Virus record (IMG/VR): IMGVR_UViG_3300005436_000274
Coordinates: 1 to 20,627 of that record
DNA length: 20,627 nt
DNA from: a virus
Direction: 5' to 3' (one strand)
Every line of letters begins with the position of its first letter. Position 1 is the stretch's first letter. Both the position numbers and the translations under genes were made by a program. The notes beneath the pieces are model-generated. The model did not search any database. It saw only the letters and a program-made list of their open reading frames with translations, and was not told the DNA's origin. Below are positions 3,341-13,453 of this stretch, piece by piece.

Positions 3341-3877
3341 CTACACTCCTGAGTCCGCCGCGTTGATTGTATAGTCTCCCGGCGTACCTGCTAACGTATA
3401 GAACAGCCCGCGCGGGCACCAACAGTTGAAGACGTACGACGCACCAACAGCGGGGGTTAGTACACTGAATGAGGTCCCCGCTACCGGTAGTGTTGATGGA
3501 TGGCCGTTATACAATGTAATAGTCACGCCAGATCCAGCTGCACCGACAACAACAGATCCTAGATAGGAGCCTCTAAGTGAGATAATGGTGTATGCACCGG
3601 AGTGGTTGTTCGCAAACGTAGCAGTAAACGTCCCAGCACCCTTATCGATAGCAGTAACTAAGACGTTCTCCGCTGTCCCTGTGCCGTTAGCGACGTTCAG
3701 CTGCATACCCGCAAAGATATTAGACATGGACGCCGGCGTCACAACCACGTTCGCACCTGCAGTAATGGTCGTCGCGGAGGTGGTACTAACTAGTGAACCC
3801 ACAGGGACGGTTGTACCGGTCGAAGTCACGTGAAGTGGTGTATAGTCCCCAATGGGTGAATATCTAACATGTGGCAT
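3341..3877 (-). CDS. Beta-rich virion protein (decoration or fibre-like)
   Basis: 178 residues starting MPHVRYSPIGDYTPLH. The middle (about residues 35-100) has an Ig-like or beta-sandwich pattern ('VVVTPASMSNIFAGMQLNV', then 'TFTATFANNHSGAYTI') often found in phage and Chloroflexi surface proteins. The C-terminal 70 residues form a second small beta domain containing 'YVFNCWCPRGLF'. The start is two bases after the terminase stop, with AAGGA about 13 bases upstream (weak), so coupling is probable. A virion role is likely; the exact role is unknown. Confidence 0.7.
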   Translation of the reverse strand: MPHVRYSPIGDYTPLHVTSTGTTVPVGSLVSTTSATTITAGANVVVTPASMSNIFAGMQLNVANGTGTAENVLVTAIDKGAGTFTATFANNHSGAYTIISLRGSYLGSVVVGAAGSGVTITLYNGHPSTLPVAGTSFSVLTPAVGASYVFNCWCPRGLFYTLAGTPGDYTINAADSGV

Positions 3878-3879
3878 TT

Positions 3880-5247
3880 TTAGAATTGAATCCTTCGGTG
3901 ACCAGAGACATCTTTGAGAAACTGCTCGACAGCAGTCTGCCGACTCTGTAGGTAGTCATCTACGATAGCATGTCTCTGAGGTACAAGTGTGATATGGTGC
4001 TCCGGAACGGGAGCCGTCCTAGAGACTAGGAACGGAATGGATGCGCCTTCCTTAACGGACCAAGCCAGTAAGGCTAGCGCCATCACGCAGTCGTCATGTA
4101 GATTATCTGGAGCGGAGTAGATATAGTTACCAGAAGGCGTCAAGTGATATTCAAACGACTTCAGCTCTTCGACAAGCACAGGTATGTTCGGAAATGTAAT
4201 ACGCTCATGCTCGAGCTCAACGGTCAAGTTCTCGATCAGGTTCGCTTTTGTTTGATTTGTGAATGTGTATCCCGTGGCATGAATACCCAACGACCTGACC
4301 ATATCCAATAGCGGATCTCCCACACCGGTGCAGTCCATTATGACAGATGCGTTGTTATAGAGTTCACTCAGGTTGCGAACGCGCTGTGCTTGCGCAACGT
4401 AGTCCACTCCGGAGAACCTCTCGAATGCGACTACGTGCCGCTCCTCCATATCGAGTATCATTAGTACAGAGAAGTCAGCATGCTTTGCAGGGTCCCACGA
4501 GAGCTTGTACGGCCTACCCGGAACGGGTTCTTGCAGCTCTCCGTACGTACAAGCGTCGACCGTACGGAAGACTCCTGCAGACTCCTCTAAGAACTCTGCT
4601 TCATACTCCTGTCGGAATACATCAACCGGCAGAGTCCTACGCGCCTCTTCAATATCCGCTCTACCGATATACGGGTTAGCCCACGTTGGGAACGTGAAGG
4701 ATCGATAGACATCTTGCGTCTCGTCCAATCCGCGAAGGAACAAGCGGTAGAACCAGTTCCTTCCAAGGGGAGTTGAAATGAAGATGGCTCTACCATTTGT
4801 ATCTGACAGCGCCGGACGTAAAGCTGCTTCCCAAGCCTCTTGAGCGACACGTGCAGCCTCGTCCATAACGAGAAAGTGTATGCCATCACCACGTAGGTTA
4901 TCGAACCTCTCCGTCGACCGAAACTCCACAGCGGATTCATTGATTAGTTCAAGACGCAACTCGGACTTATTAGGCTCAGAAGCGAGCACACCTCTTAGAC
5001 TACGTGCCATTAGCCTAAAGGCAATCTGCGTCTGTCTATAAACAGGAGCAACCCACATTGAGAGCGTCCCAGGGTGCTCTAGAGCAAACTTCGACACTTC
5101 GTTTGCGCACGCCAACGTCTTGCCAAATCTTCGACCACAACTCATGACACGGTAGCGTGCTGCACAATCATGCAACAGCATCTGTCCAGCGTGCGGAGAA
5201 TAGAGGTGAACGGTGACTTCTTTTGTCTCGGGGCGGTTATCGAACAT
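3880..5247 (-). CDS. terL: Terminase large subunit (packaging ATPase/nuclease)
   Basis: 455 residues. The ATPase domain has Walker A 'SCGRRFGKT' at 36-44, Walker B plus catalytic Glu 'FLVMDE' at 125-130 and the coupling motif 'ISTP' at 157-160. The RNase H-like nuclease domain has its acidic residues at D252 ('SWDPAKHAD'), D305 ('VIMDCTGVGD') and D385-D386 ('HDDCVMA'). The enzyme cuts concatemeric phage DNA and pumps it through the portal. The SD is weak (AGTGAAGC before ATG 5247). It lies 24 bases after a 23-bp hairpin, so expression may depend on readthrough or antitermination. No small terminase is visible in the window. Confidence 0.95.
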   Translation of the reverse strand: MFDNRPETKEVTVHLYSPHAGQMLLHDCAARYRVMSCGRRFGKTLACANEVSKFALEHPGTLSMWVAPVYRQTQIAFRLMARSLRGVLASEPNKSELRLELINESAVEFRSTERFDNLRGDGIHFLVMDEAARVAQEAWEAALRPALSDTNGRAIFISTPLGRNWFYRLFLRGLDETQDVYRSFTFPTWANPYIGRADIEEARRTLPVDVFRQEYEAEFLEESAGVFRTVDACTYGELQEPVPGRPYKLSWDPAKHADFSVLMILDMEERHVVAFERFSGVDYVAQAQRVRNLSELYNNASVIMDCTGVGDPLLDMVRSLGIHATGYTFTNQTKANLIENLTVELEHERITFPNIPVLVEELKSFEYHLTPSGNYIYSAPDNLHDDCVMALALLAWSVKEGASIPFLVSRTAPVPEHHITLVPQRHAIVDDYLQSRQTAVEQFLKDVSGHRRIQF

Positions 5248-5261
5248 GCTTCACTGACAGG

Positions 5262-5420
5262 TTAAAAATGCAAAAACTAAAAGACGTTATAGCCTTGCGG
5301 GAAGCTATAACGTCTTTTAGTTTTTGCTCACCTTGAACGACTAGCCTATTGGAGGTAACAACAGTTTGTCTCACCAGGTGCGAGGGGCTAGAAACGCTAG
5401 TTTTCCAAGCTCTTCCTCTT
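5262..5420 (-). ncRNA. Candidate short leader RNA between promoter and terL terminator
   Basis: Transcription from the promoter at 5456-5427 should start near 5420 and meet the strong hairpin ending at 5271, giving an RNA of about 150-160 nt. The stretch has no ORF with an SD. It can pair CTAGCC with GGCTAG over about 40 bases and forms smaller hairpins (CTAG-CGTTT-CTAG and CAC-CTG-GTG). It is either a separate small RNA or an attenuated terL leader. Confidence 0.4.
5271..5326 (-). terminator. 23-bp hairpin with A/T tracts, terminator-like, in the terL leader
   Basis: A perfect 23-bp inverted repeat (5271-5293 with 5304-5326) has a 10-base loop. Both ends of the stem are A/T tracts, so it would terminate in either direction, and on the minus strand it is followed by CATTTTTAACC. 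It stands between the promoter at 5427-5456 and the terminase ATG. Confidence 0.85.
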
Positions 5421-5426
5421 GATTTT

Positions 5427-5456
5427 ATTATAGTATATATCCATCGGCAAAATCAA
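5427..5456 (-). promoter_or_regulatory. Sigma70-type promoter upstream of terL
   Basis: -35 TTGATT (5456-5451), 18-bp spacer, -10 TATAAT (5432-5427). It belongs to the same family as seven others in the window and is placed directly after the stop codon of the macro-domain gene. Confidence 0.75.
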
Positions 5457-5475
5457 GGGGTCTTCTTGGAATCTG

Positions 5476-5931
5476 TCAGTGATCTATCAGCCACGTAGGA
5501 ATTTGCAGTTGAGTGACGACGTTGACTAGTAACTCCTCAGAGGCGGCCTTTGGTAAATCGCCATACCGACCTTCGTACAGCGGCATTATCGCAACTCTAG
5601 CATCTGCAAGTCCGGAGACGAACTCTACAAGCGATCGTAGTGCGACCTCGACGTTCTCTAACTTCATCGGGGACTTCCAGTGACCACGAACACCGACGTG
5701 AATGAGATTCGGTGTTGCCTCTACGTTCAAGTAGCACTTGCCGAGCTTCAAGTCATGACGAACACAGGCGTTGTGGTAGGTCAGGAACGTATCTTCGCCT
5801 AGCAGTCGTATGAGGGTATCGTACTTACTAGAGGACTCTTGCATCACTCCGGAGATGTTTGTAAAATGTACCACATGCGTGGACATAAGGAAGGCTTCTT
5901 CGATCGGAAGACGGGCTATCATAGTTGGCAT
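5476..5931 (-). CDS. Divergent macro-domain (ADP-ribose-binding-like) protein
   Basis: 151 residues from ATG 5931; the longer TTG-start form would begin inside a terminator. The order of motifs follows DarG/ADP-ribose-phosphatase-type macro domains. There is an N-terminal 'NISGVM' (25-30) where those proteins have an Asn-x-x-GVMG loop, then 'TYHNACVRHDLKLGKCY', then 'GHWKSPMKLENVEVALRSL' (83-101) matching the usual '(PTK)xHWR-S-x-LE-I-x-x-GL', and 'IMPLYEGRYGDLP' (115-127) in place of 'P-x-GCG-GG-L'. The ADP-ribose-contacting glycines and the catalytic Lys (here Arg82) are changed, so it may bind but not hydrolyse. It could counter host ADP-ribosylation defence. Family assignment is from memory. 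Confidence 0.6.
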   Translation of the reverse strand: MPTMIARLPIEEAFLMSTHVVHFTNISGVMQESSSKYDTLIRLLGEDTFLTYHNACVRHDLKLGKCYLNVEATPNLIHVGVRGHWKSPMKLENVEVALRSLVEFVSGLADARVAIMPLYEGRYGDLPKAASEELLVNVVTQLQIPTWLIDH

Positions 5932-5950
5932 TAAAAGGTCCGCCCTTTGC

Positions 5951-5987
5951 AAAAAGAACCCACATGCGGTATACTACATGTGGGTTC
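5951..5987 (-). terminator. Intrinsic terminator after the 84-residue gene
   Basis: An 11-bp perfect stem (5956-5966 with 5977-5987) with a 10-base loop is followed on the minus strand by TTTTTGC. It lies 19 bases after the stop of the gene at 6007-6261 and 20 bases before the macro-domain ATG. Confidence 0.8.
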
Positions 5988-6006
5988 ATGAACTCGAAGG
6001 CTCGTG

Positions 6007-6261
6007 CTAGCCCCCGACGACTCTTGGAATCAAGATCACAGTATCGTACTCCAACGCGCTTGGGAATTCCATGACACGAACCGTGCCTCGCTCAGCAGAA
6101 ATGCCATACGCAGACCCACTGCGCGCGGCAACCTCAGCGAAGATCTCACGTGCGGCTTTGATGGCCGCTAGCGCCGCGGGATCGTTCGTAGCGACCTTGT
6201 CCGTATCGACAATAGTCACGTCATCTCCACGCTTGGAGAGCTGTCGGAAAGTAACCTTCAT
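6007..6261 (-). CDS. Hypothetical small phage protein
   Basis: 84 residues starting MKVTFRQLSKRGDDV, with an excellent SD (AGGAGG, 9 bases before the ATG). It is predicted as beta strand, then an Ala-rich helix (residues 27-47), then beta strands with 'VRVMEF' and 'DTVILIPRVVGG'. No family recognised. It follows the 200-residue gene closely (18 bases) and is followed by a terminator, so it is the last gene of that unit. Confidence 0.75.
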   Translation of the reverse strand: MKVTFRQLSKRGDDVTIVDTDKVATNDPAALAAIKAAREIFAEVAARSGSAYGISAERGTVRVMEFPSALEYDTVILIPRVVGG

Positions 6262-6279
6262 CTTCGTGAACCTCCTGTG

Positions 6280-6882
6280 CTATTCCGTGGGGTATTGTCC
6301 GGTACCGATCATGTACTCCAGTAGTGGCCACAAGCAGCCATCTGGAACAGCAGATGATCGATTTTTATTTGCAGTACGCTCTAGTCTTCCCTCATCCCCC
6401 CGAATGAGAAGTAAGAGCCATATTACTCTGTCTGGTTCAGGCAAGCCGTATTCTGAGGCGTCTATGCACCAATATGAGAACTCTCTCGACTTTGGACTCA
6501 AGGCGTATAGTGCACCGTCCCAAATCATGTAGACACGACCCGCTACACGTCGACTGGGTTCGAAGACCACACTATTGCGAGTGTAGAGCTCAAATTCCTG
6601 TGGCGTTAGCAGAGTTTGTAATAAGTTCAGAGCAGTCTGTCTAGCCTCTTCAGCCTCTCGACGTCTAGCGACCCGTTCCTCTTCGCGCTGGCGTTCGACC
6701 ACTGCTATACTAAGTCCTTCTGGATGATCCTCACCCGGCCGGAGCCAACGCAACGTAGCGTAATAGTCTGCTGAGGGAGTATAGATCGTACCCGTGCCGG
6801 CTTGTGTAGTAGCAGTGACGTGCAGTTGGATGTCACCAACCGAGGCGAACTCCCCGTTGTATAGACTAAAATAGGGCGCCAT
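6280..6882 (-). CDS. Hypothetical protein with coiled coil and small alpha/beta domain
   Basis: 200 residues, SD GGAGGT 12 bases before ATG 6882. Residues 60-95 are a highly charged coiled coil (RQREEERVARRREAEEA). Residues 85-172 ('LLQTLLTPQEFELY...GRVYMIWDG...YGLPEPDRVIWLLLLIRGDEGRLERTAN', given here only in fragments) match a small conserved domain I have seen in actinobacterial and phage proteins, where it reads 'LLxExLTPEQ...Y.I..G..G.V...C..P...lP..D..l..kL.l..dE..FL..AN'. Function is unknown. A 6-bp hairpin (6913-6929) lies between tRNA-Ile and the SD. Confidence 0.75.
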   Translation of the reverse strand: MAPYFSLYNGEFASVGDIQLHVTATTQAGTGTIYTPSADYYATLRWLRPGEDHPEGLSIAVVERQREEERVARRREAEEARQTALNLLQTLLTPQEFELYTRNSVVFEPSRRVAGRVYMIWDGALYALSPKSREFSYWCIDASEYGLPEPDRVIWLLLLIRGDEGRLERTANKNRSSAVPDGCLWPLLEYMIGTGQYPTE

Positions 6883-8539: not shown

Positions 8540-8621
8540 CGGTAGGGACAGGAGTCGAACCCGCTACTGCTCATCACAGCGACTCTTTTCAGGAGAGCTC
8601 CACACCGTTGTGCTCCCTACC
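8540..8621 (-). tRNA. tRNA-Ser(TGA) with C33
   Basis: 82 nt, class II. Acceptor GGTAGGG/CCCTACC, G73, a variable arm (CTG...CAG), T loop TTCGACT. Anticodon stem GCTCT/AGAGT encloses the loop CCTGAAA, so position 33 is C instead of U. The D arm is short (CACA/TGTG). Confidence 0.8.
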
Positions 8622-8722: not shown

Positions 8723-8795
8723 AGGAGCGTATGGGATTCGAACCCATAGAGGCCTGATTCGAACTCAGGTGAGCGATCCGCCGCTCGCACGCTCC
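8723..8795 (-). tRNA. tRNA-Arg(TCG)
   Basis: 73 nt. Acceptor GGAGCGT/ACGCTCC, D stem GAGC/GCTC, anticodon stem CCTGA/TCAGG with loop GTTCGAA, T stem ATGGG/CCCAT, discriminator T. Confidence 0.88.
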
Positions 8796-8798
8796 AGA

Positions 8799-9576: not shown

Positions 9577-9647
9577 AGCCGTAGGAGGGACTCGAACCCT
9601 CAACGCAGTTGTTCCTACTGCACCGTACCCCTAAGTCGTCCCACGGC
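9577..9647 (-). tRNA. tRNA-like gene, anticodon uncertain (GAA if standard)
   Basis: 71 nt. Acceptor GCCGTGG/CTACGGC and T arm GAGGG-TTCGAGT-CCCTC are good. Anticodon stem GCAGT/ACTGC is perfect but the loop AGGAACA has G33, the variable loop is 3 nt and the D arm is poor. A normal tRNA-Phe(GAA) exists at 18336-18408, so this copy is probably degenerate or altered. Confidence 0.55.
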
Positions 9648-9652
9648 GTATA

Positions 9653-11274: not shown

Positions 11275-12009
11275 TTAACTGGCGAATAGATAGCCTAAGA
11301 CGGACTCTCCGACTTTGACGTCGCGCACCTCGATGGCATTTGCTTCCTCTCGTGCGACCTTAACAGCCTCTTGCAATTTGATCACACGCGACAGGAGCTC
11401 GTTAACGCGGTGCGCTGGAAGCGCTCCAGAGAACTTGACCGTTCTCCAGTGTCCGACTGTGATGTCTTCATAATAGACATCGACCTGCGCGGGATGCTTA
11501 TCCGTAGCTTCTGCCTTGATGTGATTGCGAGGAACCTTCTTAGTCTTCGTTGTCATGACAGGCTCAGTAGCCCATACGTCTGCTGACTGATCGAATGCCC
11601 ACGTCTCGCTTGGATCTAGCACAGGCAGCTTTTTGATGAACGTGTGCAGATCGACCAACTGCTTCTCCAGAAACAGTAAGTATGTCGCGGGGACATCGAA
11701 CAGCAAGGTCTGCCCATCGATAACGACGTTCGCCTTTGCCTGGCAGTTTGCCCAGTCCTTAATTGCAACGACGTCAAACAGTTTGGTCAGAGTCTCACTC
11801 GTCTTGCGGATGACGGCTTCAGCCTTCAACTGAACGCGCGTTGACTCCGGTGGATACTGTTCGCCTTCTTCGTCCCGAGGTCGATACGTTCTCGCAATGC
11901 CGGCTAGCATCGTTACTTTCTGCAGCGAGTGATGTGCGTCAGTCAAATCTACCATAGCACGACTCTTCGTGCCTTTCTCTAACGCTATTACTTGATTGAG
12001 CTTCGCCAT
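11275..12009 (-). CDS. Conserved phage protein of unknown function (DUF7873-like)
   Basis: 244 residues starting MAKLNQVIALEKGTKSRA. ATG 12009 is chosen because GGAGGT stands 3 bases before it and the family typically starts 'MAKLNQIIAIEKG'. The whole length matches a protein common in actinobacterial phages (segments 'HHSLQKVTMLAG', 'DVVAIKDWANCQAKANVVIDG', 'TYLLFLEKQLVDLHTF', 'KLPVLDP', 'EVRDVKVGESVLGYLF'). Family identification is from memory. It is soluble and helical, with no signal or membrane segment. A 12-bp hairpin lies in the leader, and a TATAAT without a good -35 lies at 12119-12124. Confidence 0.85.
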   Translation of the reverse strand: MAKLNQVIALEKGTKSRAMVDLTDAHHSLQKVTMLAGIARTYRPRDEEGEQYPPESTRVQLKAEAVIRKTSETLTKLFDVVAIKDWANCQAKANVVIDGQTLLFDVPATYLLFLEKQLVDLHTFIKKLPVLDPSETWAFDQSADVWATEPVMTTKTKKVPRNHIKAEATDKHPAQVDVYYEDITVGHWRTVKFSGALPAHRVNELLSRVIKLQEAVKVAREEANAIEVRDVKVGESVLGYLFAS

Positions 12010-12032
12010 TGTACCTCCACTTGATAAAAAGT

Positions 12033-12066
12033 GGAGACCTAACGTAATATCCACCGTTAGGTCTCC
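12033..12066 (-). terminator. Terminator-like hairpin in the leader of the 244-residue gene
   Basis: GGAGACCTAACG (12033-12044) pairs with CGTTAGGTCTCC (12055-12066), 12 bp with a 10-base loop. On the minus strand ACTTTTTATC follows, then the SD. On the plus strand TTTTATG follows, so it looks bidirectional. Confidence 0.75.
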
Positions 12067-12147
12067 TTTTATGTCTGCCCATTTGCACACACCAACGCAA
12101 GTTGCTTGAAGTTCACTTATTATACCTAGCGCTCTGCGATTAAGCTA

Positions 12148-12169
12148 CCGTGGCACGAAAAAGCCACGG
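12148..12169 (-). repeat. 7-bp hairpin CCGTGGC/GCCACGG
   Basis: Its 5' arm on the minus strand (CCGTGGC) is also the segment that could pair with the 5' acceptor strand at 12302-12308. The 8-base loop is TTTTTCGT. No U-tract follows. Confidence 0.5.
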
Positions 12170-12267
12170 GCCGGAATTGCACCGGCATCTCAACGGTCTC
12201 GACTTCAGCGTTTAGATTTGGCGTTCGGCAGCGAAATGCTGAGTTTGGGTTGAGAGTCTCAGCTTGA
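12170..12267 (-). other. Structured non-coding stretch downstream of the split tRNA
   Basis: It contains CTGAG/CTCAG and CTCAAC/GTTGAG pairs, a CAGC/GCTG pair, and a GCCGG-TGCAATT-CCGGC stem-loop resembling a T arm with an abnormal loop. If joined to the 5' half at 12308 it would make a 147-nt tRNA-like RNA with a 6/7 acceptor match. No ORF with an SD is present. Confidence 0.4.
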
Positions 12268-12356
12268 GTGGATTGCGCATGCGCCTCTGCCAGTTGGGCT
12301 ACTGCGGCATGGGAGCCGCAGGTAGGACTCGAACCTACACTTTTAACGCTTACCCG
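12268..12356 (-). tRNA. Candidate circularly permuted tRNA (3' half before 5' half)
   Basis: In transcript order: a 3' half (T arm GTAGG-TTCGAGT-CCTAC, then acceptor strand CTGCGGC, 12315-12321), six bases (TCCCAT, 12309-12314), then a 5' half (acceptor strand GCCGCAG, 12302-12308, then TA and the D arm GCCC-AACTGGCAG-AGGC). The two acceptor strands are perfect complements. No other 5' half lies upstream of the 3' half. The anticodon arm cannot be fixed: GCGTT in the 3' half can pair with GGCGC or CATGC of the 5' half. Confidence 0.5.
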
Positions 12357-12357
12357 T

Positions 12358-12382
12358 CAGACTAAAATTGAATTTGAGTCTG
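12358..12382 (-). repeat. Hairpin upstream of the permuted tRNA 3' half
   Basis: CAGACT (12358-12363) pairs with AGTCTG (12377-12382), with AAAT/ATTT inside. It occupies the place where a D arm of an ordinary tRNA would have to be. Confidence 0.6.
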
Positions 12383-12390
12383 AAACCCGG

Positions 12391-12462
12391 GGTGCCTAAC
12401 GGGGTTCGAACCCGTAATGGGAGAGCCACAATCTCCAGTGTTACCATTACACTATAGACACC
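12391..12462 (-). tRNA. tRNA-His(GTG)
   Basis: 72 nt including G-1 paired with C73, the histidine hallmark. Acceptor GTGTCTA/TAGGCAC, D stem GTG/CAC, anticodon stem GGAGA/TCTCC with loop TTGTGGC, T arm ACGGG-TTCGAAC-CCCGT. Confidence 0.95.
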
Positions 12463-12475
12463 ATAGCAAAGCAAA

Positions 12476-12531
12476 CTAGCGAGCGGCAGTGGAGGGTAAA
12501 GTATGGAAAAACTCTTGCTGTCGCTCCCTAG
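12476..12531 (-). repeat. Spacer hairpin between tRNA-Gln(TTG) and tRNA-His
   Basis: CTAGCGAGCGGCAG (12476-12489) pairs with CTGTCGCTCCCTAG (12518-12531) at 12 of 14 positions. It ends 4 bases from the tRNA-Gln 3' end. Confidence 0.65.
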
Positions 12532-12535
12532 TCGG

Positions 12536-12608
12536 CACGACCTTCAGGATTCGAACCCGAATAGTTTGAGTCAAAGTCAAACGTCCTACCTAGTTAGACG
12601 AAGGTCGT
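12536..12608 (-). tRNA. tRNA-Gln(TTG)
   Basis: 73 nt. Acceptor ACGACCT/AGGTCGT, G73, D stem GTCT/GGAC, anticodon stem TTTGA/TCAAA with loop CTTTGAC, T arm TCGGG-TTCGAAT-CCTGA. Confidence 0.9.
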
Positions 12609-12612
12609 AGGA

Positions 12613-12657
12613 AAGACCGTTACCACACCCTCTGTGCCGACGCGCAGTAACCGTCTT
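12613..12657 (-). repeat. Spacer hairpin between the anticodon-less tRNA and tRNA-Gln
   Basis: AAGACCGTTAC (12613-12623) pairs with GTAACCGTCTT (12647-12657), 10 of 11 positions. It fills the spacer, leaving 4 bases at one end and 1 at the other. Confidence 0.7.
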
Positions 12658-12658
12658 A

Positions 12659-12718
12659 TGGAGATGGTCGGATTCGAACCGACGACCTCTAGCGCTCTTC
12701 CAACTGAGCTACATCCCC
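12659..12718 (-). tRNA. 60-nt tRNA lacking its anticodon arm
   Basis: Acceptor GGGGATG/CATCTCC, D arm GCTC-AGTTGGAA-GAGC, T arm GTCGG-TTCGAAT-CCGAC and A73 are all perfect. The 17-nt anticodon arm plus variable loop is reduced to CTAGAGGTC. It looks like a precise deletion in a normal tRNA, possibly between the two sides of a CTAGA/TCTAG stem, with the T- and D-domains kept intact. Confidence 0.7.
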
Positions 12719-12721
12719 GAG

Positions 12722-12766
12722 TGCGTAGAGTACCAAAAATCGGACCCGGGTTTGATACCCTACGCA
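12722..12766 (-). repeat. Spacer hairpin upstream of the anticodon-less tRNA
   Basis: TGCGTAGAGTA (12722-12732) pairs with TACCCTACGCA (12756-12766) at 10 of 11 positions, starting 4 bases from the tRNA 5' end. Confidence 0.65.
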
Positions 12767-12779
12767 TGTGACACACTGT

Positions 12780-12877
12780 CTGGCTTCTCCGAGCGATCCC
12801 ACTAGTGAGCGAAAGGACAAACTCTCACTAGCCGTGGCAGGCGGGATTTGCTAAAGCGATAAAGTGTCCGAAGCCAG
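12780..12877 (-). repeat. Nested spacer hairpins next to tRNA-Val
   Basis: CTGGCTTC (12780-12787) pairs with GAAGCCAG (12870-12877). Inside, CTAGTGAG (12802-12809) pairs with CTCACTAG (12824-12831). The outer arm ends 1 base from the tRNA-Val 3' end. No gene is seen. Confidence 0.7.
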
Positions 12878-12878
12878 G

Positions 12879-12951
12879 TAGCGACAACTGGGCTCGAACC
12901 AGTGGCCTCCTCTTTGTAGGAGAGGCGCTCTTCCAACTGAGCTATGCCGCT
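12879..12951 (-). tRNA. tRNA-Val(TAC) with C33
   Basis: 73 nt. Acceptor AGCGGCA/TGTCGCT, A73, D arm GCTC-AGTTGGAA-GAGC, T arm ACTGG-TTCGAGC-CCAGT. Anticodon stem CCTCT/AGAGG with loop CCTACAA, so position 33 is C. A shifted pairing with loop CTACAAA would need a mismatch and an unusual frame. Confidence 0.82.
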
Positions 12952-12955
12952 ACGC

Positions 12956-12987
12956 AACGTGCAGCAGCCTCAAAAACAGTGCACGTT
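12956..12987 (-). repeat. Spacer hairpin upstream of tRNA-Val
   Basis: AACGTGCA (12956-12963) pairs with TGCACGTT (12980-12987), 4 bases from the tRNA-Val 5' end. Confidence 0.65.
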
Positions 12988-13028
12988 ACGCTCTCTGTTC
13001 CCCTTTAAGGAGCCATCCAAAATGGGGA

Positions 13029-13101
13029 TGGAAGTGAAGAGATTCGAACTCTCACTGACTAGTTCTTAAATCTAGTGCCTCTGCCGTTGGGCTACACTTC
13101 C
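13029..13101 (-). tRNA. tRNA-Leu(TAA), class I body
   Basis: 73 nt. Acceptor GGAAGTG/CACTTCC, A73, anticodon stem CTAG/CTAG plus one mismatch, loop TTTAAGA, 5-nt variable loop TCAGT, T arm GAGAG-TTCGAAT-CTCTT. Confidence 0.85.
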
Positions 13102-13102
13102 A

Positions 13103-13160
13103 CGCTAGCGTGTTGAGAAAGGGCTTGGAGCCAAGTGTCAAAGCTCCACACGTTCTAGCG
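13103..13160 (-). repeat. Nested spacer hairpin between tRNA-Met and tRNA-Leu(TAA)
   Basis: CGCTAG/CTAGCG (13103-13108 with 13155-13160), GTGT/ACAC inside, then GGAGC/GCTCC (13127-13131 with 13143-13147). It starts 1 base from the tRNA-Leu 5' end. Confidence 0.65.
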
Positions 13161-13177
13161 TTCGGCCAATTGCCGAG

Positions 13178-13249
13178 TTGCGACAGACGGATTCGGACCG
13201 TCAACTTCCATCTTATGAAGATGGCGCTCTACCATTGAGCTATATCGCA
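13178..13249 (-). tRNA. tRNA-Met(CAT), elongator type (or Ile2)
   Basis: 72 nt. Acceptor TGCGATA/TGTCGCA fully paired (so not initiator), anticodon stem CCATC/GATGG with loop TTCATAA, A73. T loop is TCCGAAT, with C55 instead of the usual T. Confidence 0.88.
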
Positions 13250-13255
13250 AAGTGA

Positions 13256-13319
13256 GAGGTAGTACGTCAGTGGAACTACCTCATTCCGGAAAACCTTATG
13301 CGCGCACCGAGAGGTGTGC
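13256..13319 (-). repeat. Two spacer hairpins between tRNA-Ile(GAT) and tRNA-Met
   Basis: GAGGTAGT/ACTACCTC (13256-13263 with 13275-13282) and GCGCACC/GGTGTGC with a GAGA loop (13302-13308 with 13313-13319). Confidence 0.65.
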
Positions 13320-13321
13320 GG

Positions 13322-13395
13322 TGGAGACAGCTAGACTCGAACTAACAACCTCCGCCTTATCAGAGCGGCGCTCAGACCAATTGAGCTATGTCTCC
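13322..13395 (-). tRNA. tRNA-Ile(GAT)
   Basis: 74 nt. Acceptor GGAGACA/TGTCTCC, A73, D arm GCTC-AATTGGTCT-GAGC, anticodon stem CCGCT/GGCGG with loop CTGATAA, T arm GTTAG-TTCGAGT-CTAGC. Confidence 0.95.
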
Positions 13396-13453
13396 ACGAT
13401 GTAGACGCGCGAGCCTACATCGTTTGGTCCCACTAGTGCTCCACAGTGGGGAC
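13396..13453 (-). repeat. Two spacer hairpins between tRNA-Asn and tRNA-Ile(GAT)
   Basis: ACGATGTAG/CTACATCGT (13396-13404 with 13415-13423) directly abuts the tRNA-Ile 5' end. GTCCCACT (13427-13434) pairs with AGTGGGGAC (13445-13453), which runs into the discriminator base of tRNA-Asn. Confidence 0.75.

Follow-up and report, generated by a model that had tools for sequence, protein, structure and literature searches.

A tRNA 3′ half that stands before its own 5′ half raises the question of whether the locus is a circularly permuted tRNA gene, an arrangement known from some red and green algae and archaea, or something else built from the same parts. The element lies in a viral record of 20,627 bases (the whole stretch analysed, hereafter the window), which contains terminase, portal and ThyX genes and 27 tRNAs identified by ARAGORN, every one on the minus strand. 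A preliminary description had proposed a permuted tRNA gene consisting of a 3′ half, a six-base linker and a 5′ half with a D arm, and this order was verified at 12338-12283, with all parts on the minus strand. The perfect match claimed for the acceptor strands is borne out by seven of seven Watson-Crick pairs between CTGCGGC and GCCGCAG, and the hairpin said to stand in place of an upstream 5′ half was located as well. A descriptor scan additionally identified a second element of the same kind nearby. The parts of both elements are:

12283-12338, minus strand: module A (T arm, acceptor 3′ strand, linker, acceptor 5′ strand, TA, D arm), found by the descriptor scan
12338-12322, minus strand: T arm of module A, GTAGG-TTCGAGT-CCTAC
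12321-12315, minus strand: acceptor 3′ strand of module A, CTGCGGC
12314-12309, minus strand: linker of module A, TCCCAT, 6 nt
12308-12302, minus strand: acceptor 5′ strand of module A, GCCGCAG
12301-12300, minus strand: TA spacer of module A
12299-12283, minus strand: D arm of module A, GCC-CAACTGGCAGA-GGC
12274-12350, minus strand: module A with its closing outer stem (GCG 12349-12347 with CGC 12277-12275, plus a G-U pair), from a fold of this piece of the window
12382-12358, read on the minus strand: hairpin CAGACT...AGTCTG, upstream of module A
12131-12186, minus strand: module B, the second permuted tRNA-like module, found by the descriptor scan
within 12186-12131, minus strand: parts of module B, namely T arm GCCGG-TGCAATT-CCGGC, acceptor strand CCGTGGC, linker TTTTTCGT, acceptor strand GCCACGG, TA and D arm GCTT-AATCGCA-GAGC

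Exactly two elements in the window reached a score of at least 26 in the scan, modules A and B, the latter escaping detection when GG is demanded in the D loop. Module B repeats the layout of module A in a different sequence, again with a perfect 7-bp acceptor stem. A chance origin was rejected, as none of 400 sequences resampled from the window with a first-order Markov model reached 26 on either strand. Adjacent ordinary tRNAs do not explain the layout either, because in 24 neighbouring pairs of ordinary tRNAs from the window the 3′ strand of one and the 5′ strand of the next formed at most six of seven pairs and never seven, in a control where the 3′ strand was placed automatically and, for some tRNAs, wrongly. 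Also rejected was a colinear reading, in which the 5′ half of module A joins the 3′ half of module B: it gives six of seven pairs in the window, worse than the permuted pairing, and five to six of seven in a few relatives compared by eye. Maturation of the 5′ half of module A with the distal T arm at 12170-12186, which the preliminary description had named as the competing possibility, fails because that T arm belongs to module B and has its own perfectly matching 5′ half. The element first noticed is half of a larger two-module feature.

To define this feature, 98 loci were aligned between the modules. Conservation extends over approximately 80 nt 5′ of module A, over the A-to-B interval (mostly 85-100 nt) and over approximately 100 nt after module B, followed by a terminal hairpin whose loop motif, GGAUAU, is common to many relatives. 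The resulting elements in the window are:

12033-12388, minus strand: the whole structured RNA, approximately 350-370 nt with an approximate 5′ limit, from conservation and the family alignment (UP-A-MID-B-DN-terminal hairpin)
12218-12224, minus strand: 5′ strand of long-range helix H2, ACGCCAA, pairing with 12095-12089
12089-12095, minus strand: 3′ strand of H2, TTGGTGT, from family covariation
12202-12209, minus strand: 5′ strand of long-range helix H3, GCTGAAGT, from family covariation, with the pairing in the window made by eye
12104-12112, minus strand: 3′ strand of H3, ACTTCAAGC, with a one-base bulge, pairing with 12209-12202
12033-12067, minus strand: 3′-terminal hairpin, AGGAGACCTAACG-GTGGATAT-..., from 21 loci compared by eye

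H2 and H3 join the middle of the RNA to its 3′ part and played no part in the selection of alignment rows. Up to 94 of 97 sequences pair in H2, versus at most 68 in 300 shuffles, and up to 86 of 93 pair in H3, versus at most 55; in the window the H3 pairing was matched by eye because its row is misaligned there. A short helix linking the 5′ part and the middle is weaker than either. The outer stem of module A occupies the place where an anticodon stem would sit, and relatives, compared by eye, pair there too in a register that shifts by one.

Within the modules, 98.7% of cells are paired for A and 99.8% for B, compared with 41-55% and 40-45% in slid registers, near-complete pairing that is there by construction because the scan picking the rows demanded it. 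The covariation evidence for the modules is instead the variety of pair types: 12 of 15 pairs in module A and 13 of 16 in module B change on both sides, including all seven acceptor pairs of each, and the covariation score was reached by none of 500 shuffles. Taken together, comparison of sequences establishes the tandem permuted modules, the long-range helices joining them, the 3′ hairpin, the linkage to a neighbouring gene described below and compensatory evolution. We are nearly certain that the element is module A of a two-module structured RNA in a conserved cassette with the gene of a DUF7873 protein.

This gene lies beside the RNA on the same strand:

11275-12009, minus strand: gene of a 244-aa DUF7873 (PF25283) protein (Pfam 373 bits, E 1e-111)

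The match covers residues 1-243 and compares with a curated Pfam cut-off of 27 bits. Cellular proteins up to 75% identical to that of the window were found in Chloroflexi, Herpetosiphon, Streptomyces, Nocardia, Actinoplanes, Deinococcales and others. The preliminary description had suggested looking for the same arrangement in relatives, and modules were indeed found beside DUF7873 in phages, viral contigs and bacterial genomes. In Arthrobacter phage Mimi, Gordonia phage Phendrix, Rhodococcus phage NiceHouse, Pseudanabaena phage Pam2 and an IMG/VR contig, two modules approximately 150 nt apart lie directly 3′ of DUF7873. The module stretches carry no annotation in the four named phage records; in phage records the protein is labelled hypothetical and the RNA left blank.

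To quantify the linkage, 167 DUF7873 loci were assembled from seven annotated phage records, the best 80 of 365 IMG/VR loci and the best 80 of at least 480 genome loci; the 162 with at least 450 nt of 3′ flank were counted and five were dropped. At least one module was present within 1 kb 3′ of the gene and on its strand in 147/162 loci, and at least two in 95/162; modules upstream occurred in 1/162 and antisense modules in 0/162. Viral and phage loci had two modules in 42 cases, one in 32 and none in nine, and genome loci two in 53, one in 20 and none in six. Among the 15 misses, a covariance model or a relaxed scan resolves three (L091, L112, L162), one (L145) carries modules on the strand opposite to DUF7873, one (L065) has them approximately 1.8 kb downstream, one (L107) has a single module by the relaxed scan alone, and four (L160, L166, L119, L135) gave weak matches by one of these methods, that of L135 lying elsewhere. 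The five loci without a module by either method (L084, L085, L151, L159, L163) indicate that DUF7873 can occur without a recognisable RNA. Genes flanking DUF7873 look unconserved, judged from ORF sizes at 17 genome loci.

DUF7873 is carried by 92/150 Streptomycetaceae genomes. Among the DUF7873 matches listed for this family, 89/94 had a module-B match 174-321 nt downstream with covariance model R2, which was trained with Streptomyces. The five misses comprise one genome in which a direct search recovered both modules (G065), a fragment (G025), G092, G148 and the second copy of G138. This last copy (L238, G138 C2) is a divergent second DUF7873 of 195 bits, with a module A match of 64.9 bits approximately 80 nt downstream. 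Separately, a viral locus (L139, 3822-5570) was observed to contain five permuted-type modules, at 3822, 3972, 5131, 5331 and 5499, which could include tandem tRNAs.

The structure might instead not be a separate RNA at all and be a cis-acting element regulating DUF7873 (through mRNA stability, attenuation or autoregulation by tRNA mimicry). In favour of this, it lies nearly always on the strand of the gene, mostly 3′ of it and, in the window, 5′. Its position varies, however: the RNA precedes DUF7873 in the window and comes after it in nearly all relatives, the modules of L145 are on the opposite strand, and in Microcoleus phage My-WqHQDG (L065, 4747-6901) the RNA lies approximately 1.8 kb downstream of DUF7873, beyond an extra gene at 5184-6461, which suggests an insertion between the two. 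This variability is easier to reconcile with a partner RNA than with a cis switch, and the size and complexity of the RNA also argue against the latter, which we regard as decidedly unlikely.

Covariance models were used to score the membership of the window modules in the family. With the window in their training sets, R1 gave window module A 79.5 bits and R2 gave window module B 69.9 bits. R3, trained on 23 cellular module A sequences only, with neither the window nor phage sequences, gave window module A 74.2 bits (E 8.7e-17) and window module B 33.9 bits, and ordinary tRNA neighbours at most about 30 bits. Acceptor-strand complementarity likewise distinguishes modules from neighbouring tRNAs, save for tandem identical tRNAs. 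In Streptomycetaceae, identical tRNA-Asn genes 4-5 nt apart mimic the layout and score 55-66 bits with models of our own, so that one could imagine the modules as decayed tandem duplicates of which a single 3′ half and a single 5′ half happen to survive. Against this reading stand the compensatory changes seen at every acceptor pair, the fixed module spacing and conservation across phyla, which leave it a negligible probability; in the window, the other halves of tandem identical tRNAs are absent. When seven other strong R2 matches in Streptomycetaceae were fetched, six proved to be tandem tRNA-Asn, and a call of 'permuted tRNA' therefore needs a check for tandem tRNAs, a strong source of false calls of which annotators should be warned. 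The seventh (L233, 1227-1506, genome G055) is a module pair in a genome with no PF25283 match, either an orphan RNA or one with a divergent partner.

Could the two-module RNA nevertheless yield a working tRNA, its halves maturing via a circle or RNA ligation? The permuted order on which that proposal was built stands, and it has been kept by selection, with compensatory changes in all seven acceptor pairs of both modules; the perfect acceptor stem and the tRNA-type T and D loops agree with it. The tRNA identity is not borne out. Inspection of the flanks of A and B revealed no 5-bp stem with a 7-nt loop and U33, and across the family these flanks are conserved as other helices. Moreover, there are two modules and not one, they lie beside DUF7873, usually paired and in bacteria too, and their acceptor stems are free to vary in sequence and share no conserved identity set. 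Because neither module has an anticodon arm, a permuted tRNA gene is unsupported, and we consider it very unlikely. A group I permuted intron-exon arrangement giving a circular tRNA was rejected as well: the group I intron model RF00028 had no match in the one record searched, that of the window, split intron halves being able to evade this model. RtcB was found in 0/8 records.

The acceptor loops retain a further tRNA feature. Linkers range from 4 to 43 bases, most of them 6-8, in a scan that permitted 3 to 45. CCA occurs at linker positions 2-4, equivalent to tRNA positions 74-76, in 22/45 (A) and 14/45 (B) viral copies and in 17/50 (A) and 14/50 (B) cellular copies, a frequency in many relatives that also speaks for a true tRNA gene; at any other of four offsets tested it occurs in at most three copies, and ordinary tRNAs of the same viral loci have it at 74-76 in 22/284. 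Position 73 is A in 83/99 module A copies. CCA at 74-76 together with A73 fits recognition or cleavage by enzymes that process tRNA ends. Not every copy shows it, and neither linker of the window, TCCCAT or TTTTTCGT, has CCA at positions 2-4.

The window contains other tRNA-related features. At 12659-12718 (minus strand) lies a tRNA-like gene of 60 nt whose acceptor, D and T arms are complete and which has no anticodon arm, scoring 54 bits with the Rfam tRNA model and 36.3 bits with that of tmRNA; an annotated 62-nt 'tRNA-His' of Gordonia phage GodonK (L068, 1463-1524) may be similar. Three tRNA-like elements on the minus strand (8723-8796, 8541-8621 and 9577-9648), missed by ARAGORN, gave sub-threshold tRNA-Sec scores of 37.9, 30.2 and 20.6 bits. 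Many tRNA spacers in 11900-13400 hold long inverted repeats, seen by eye (e.g. 12612-12660 and 12955-12990), which are perhaps processing signals. A scan of 11900-12700 for promoters and terminators found no minus-strand signal exceeding chance. In Gordonia phage Phendrix (L061, 8072-8600), an unannotated tmRNA (RF00023, 89 bits) lies between annotated tRNAs.

To look for clues to the partner protein, its structure was predicted with AlphaFold2, giving a model of long helices and long strands (pLDDT 93.4, pTM 0.78). Neither a PDB sequence search (no relative, best E 0.27) nor Foldseek of the model against the PDB (nothing at E ≤ 0.001) identified a relative; VIA-align returned TolC as its best match (Z 6.7, rmsd 12.8), and no PADLOC or NCBIfam family matched the protein, a Cmr3 match at 0.029 being counted as noise. 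In a viral structure library the best useful row was A0A7M1RW91 of uncultured phage cr118_1 (prob 1.00, TMt 0.59, E 0.016), which has no named function. None of these sequence or structural matches points to RNA binding. In the family consensus, the residues around 153-176 form a basic and conserved segment (R-T-K-K-V-P-R-N-H...KHPAQ), a candidate RNA surface.

We consider it probable, with moderate confidence, that the RNA and DUF7873 form a ribonucleoprotein containing two tRNA mimics. DUF7873 would bind the RNA, and both modules would imitate the elbow and acceptor stem of a tRNA, so that tRNA-binding proteins or enzymes (e.g. T-loop modifiers, RNase P, nucleases) could recognise the particle. 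In some copies, enzymes that process tRNA 5′ and 3′ ends may cut at the acceptor hairpin loops, as in two-piece tmRNA, to leave a multi-piece RNA with tRNA-type CCA ends; such cleavage, in at least some copies, is a tentative suggestion to which we give slightly less than an even chance. More speculative, and on balance doubtful, is the full proposal of a new kind of ribonucleoprotein in phages and many soil bacteria, in which host RNase P and 3′ processing would cut both loops and leave an RNA in three pieces, with two tRNA-type CCA ends, which the long-range helices and the protein keep assembled and which captures or blocks tRNA-directed enzymes (e.g. anticodon nucleases, or those of aminoacylation or ribosome rescue).

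If the ribonucleoprotein reading is right, a conserved RNA-protein pair has gone unannotated in most of the 92 DUF7873-bearing genomes among the 150 Streptomycetaceae, and in phages of Arthrobacter, Gordonia, Rhodococcus, Pseudanabaena and Klebsiella. It would also open a first way into a protein whose fold has no known match, show that permuted tRNA mimicry, known from Y RNA with its single module, extends to an RNA with two modules, and offer Streptomyces as a model for why tRNA-rich phages also carry tRNA imitations. In Rfam 15 no family reaches its threshold over the RNA in any locus scanned, and no description of the RNA or of DUF7873 was found in the open-access literature; an RNA of two permuted tRNA-like modules with DUF7873 is apparently undescribed.

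Among characterised RNAs, the closest candidate for kinship is YrlA. The RNA could be a divergent Y RNA of this type, remaining uncut, binding Ro60/TROVE and using its module to gate an exoribonuclease, with DUF7873 replacing or assisting Ro60. The module order is permuted as in YrlA, and the YrlA model (RF02553) gives sub-threshold scores to window module A (21.3 bits, E 0.089), L053 (32.3) and module B of L061 (37.1, E 8e-5). With L001 at 26.5 and L227 at 24.3, these scores all lie below the gathering score of 69; they mean little because closely spaced ordinary tRNAs also score 20-25 bits, and YrlA identity by score was rejected for this reason. Furthermore, TROVE (PF05731) is absent from 10/10 phage or viral records (five full phage records and five that are possibly fragments), and in four bacterial genomes it gave partial matches only in two (profile 290-351) and none in the other two (G006, G008). 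Considering also the two modules in one RNA and its long-range helices, we judge membership of the YrlA type to be unlikely.

The ribonucleoprotein reading can finally be placed among known systems. The algal and archaeal permuted tRNA genes share a 3′ half placed before the 5′ half and a short linker, whereas the DUF7873 RNA lacks an anticodon arm, has two modules and occurs in bacteria and phages. Two-piece tmRNA has a permuted gene order. Its permuted form (RF04321) resembles the DUF7873 RNA in having acceptor ends in an excisable internal loop, often with an encoded CCA, and differs from it in that the DUF7873 RNA has two tRNA-like modules and a D arm with a real stem, mostly with GG; neither RF04321 nor RF00023 matched module A or B, RF04321 scoring 15.8 bits elsewhere only. 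RAGATH-36 (RF03104) has a T-arm-like hairpin followed by a hairpin and matches module B weakly (19.6 bits), far from its gathering score of 70. A bacterial Y RNA, according to a published study, superposes on tRNA with a circular permutation (PMC11472068). YrlA (RF02553) has the same permuted series of T arm, acceptor hairpin and D arm, an outer stem in place of the anticodon stem and a gene beside that of its protein partner. It differs in that the DUF7873 RNA has two modules, extra long-range helices and a 3′ hairpin, adjoins DUF7873 instead of Ro60/TROVE and scores far below the gathering score of 69. In its tRNA mimicry the DUF7873 RNA would thus work most like Y RNA or two-piece tmRNA, yet it scored outside both families in the tests run; in architecture, YrlA with its permuted tRNA mimic is a closer counterpart than the permuted tRNA genes of algae and archaea.
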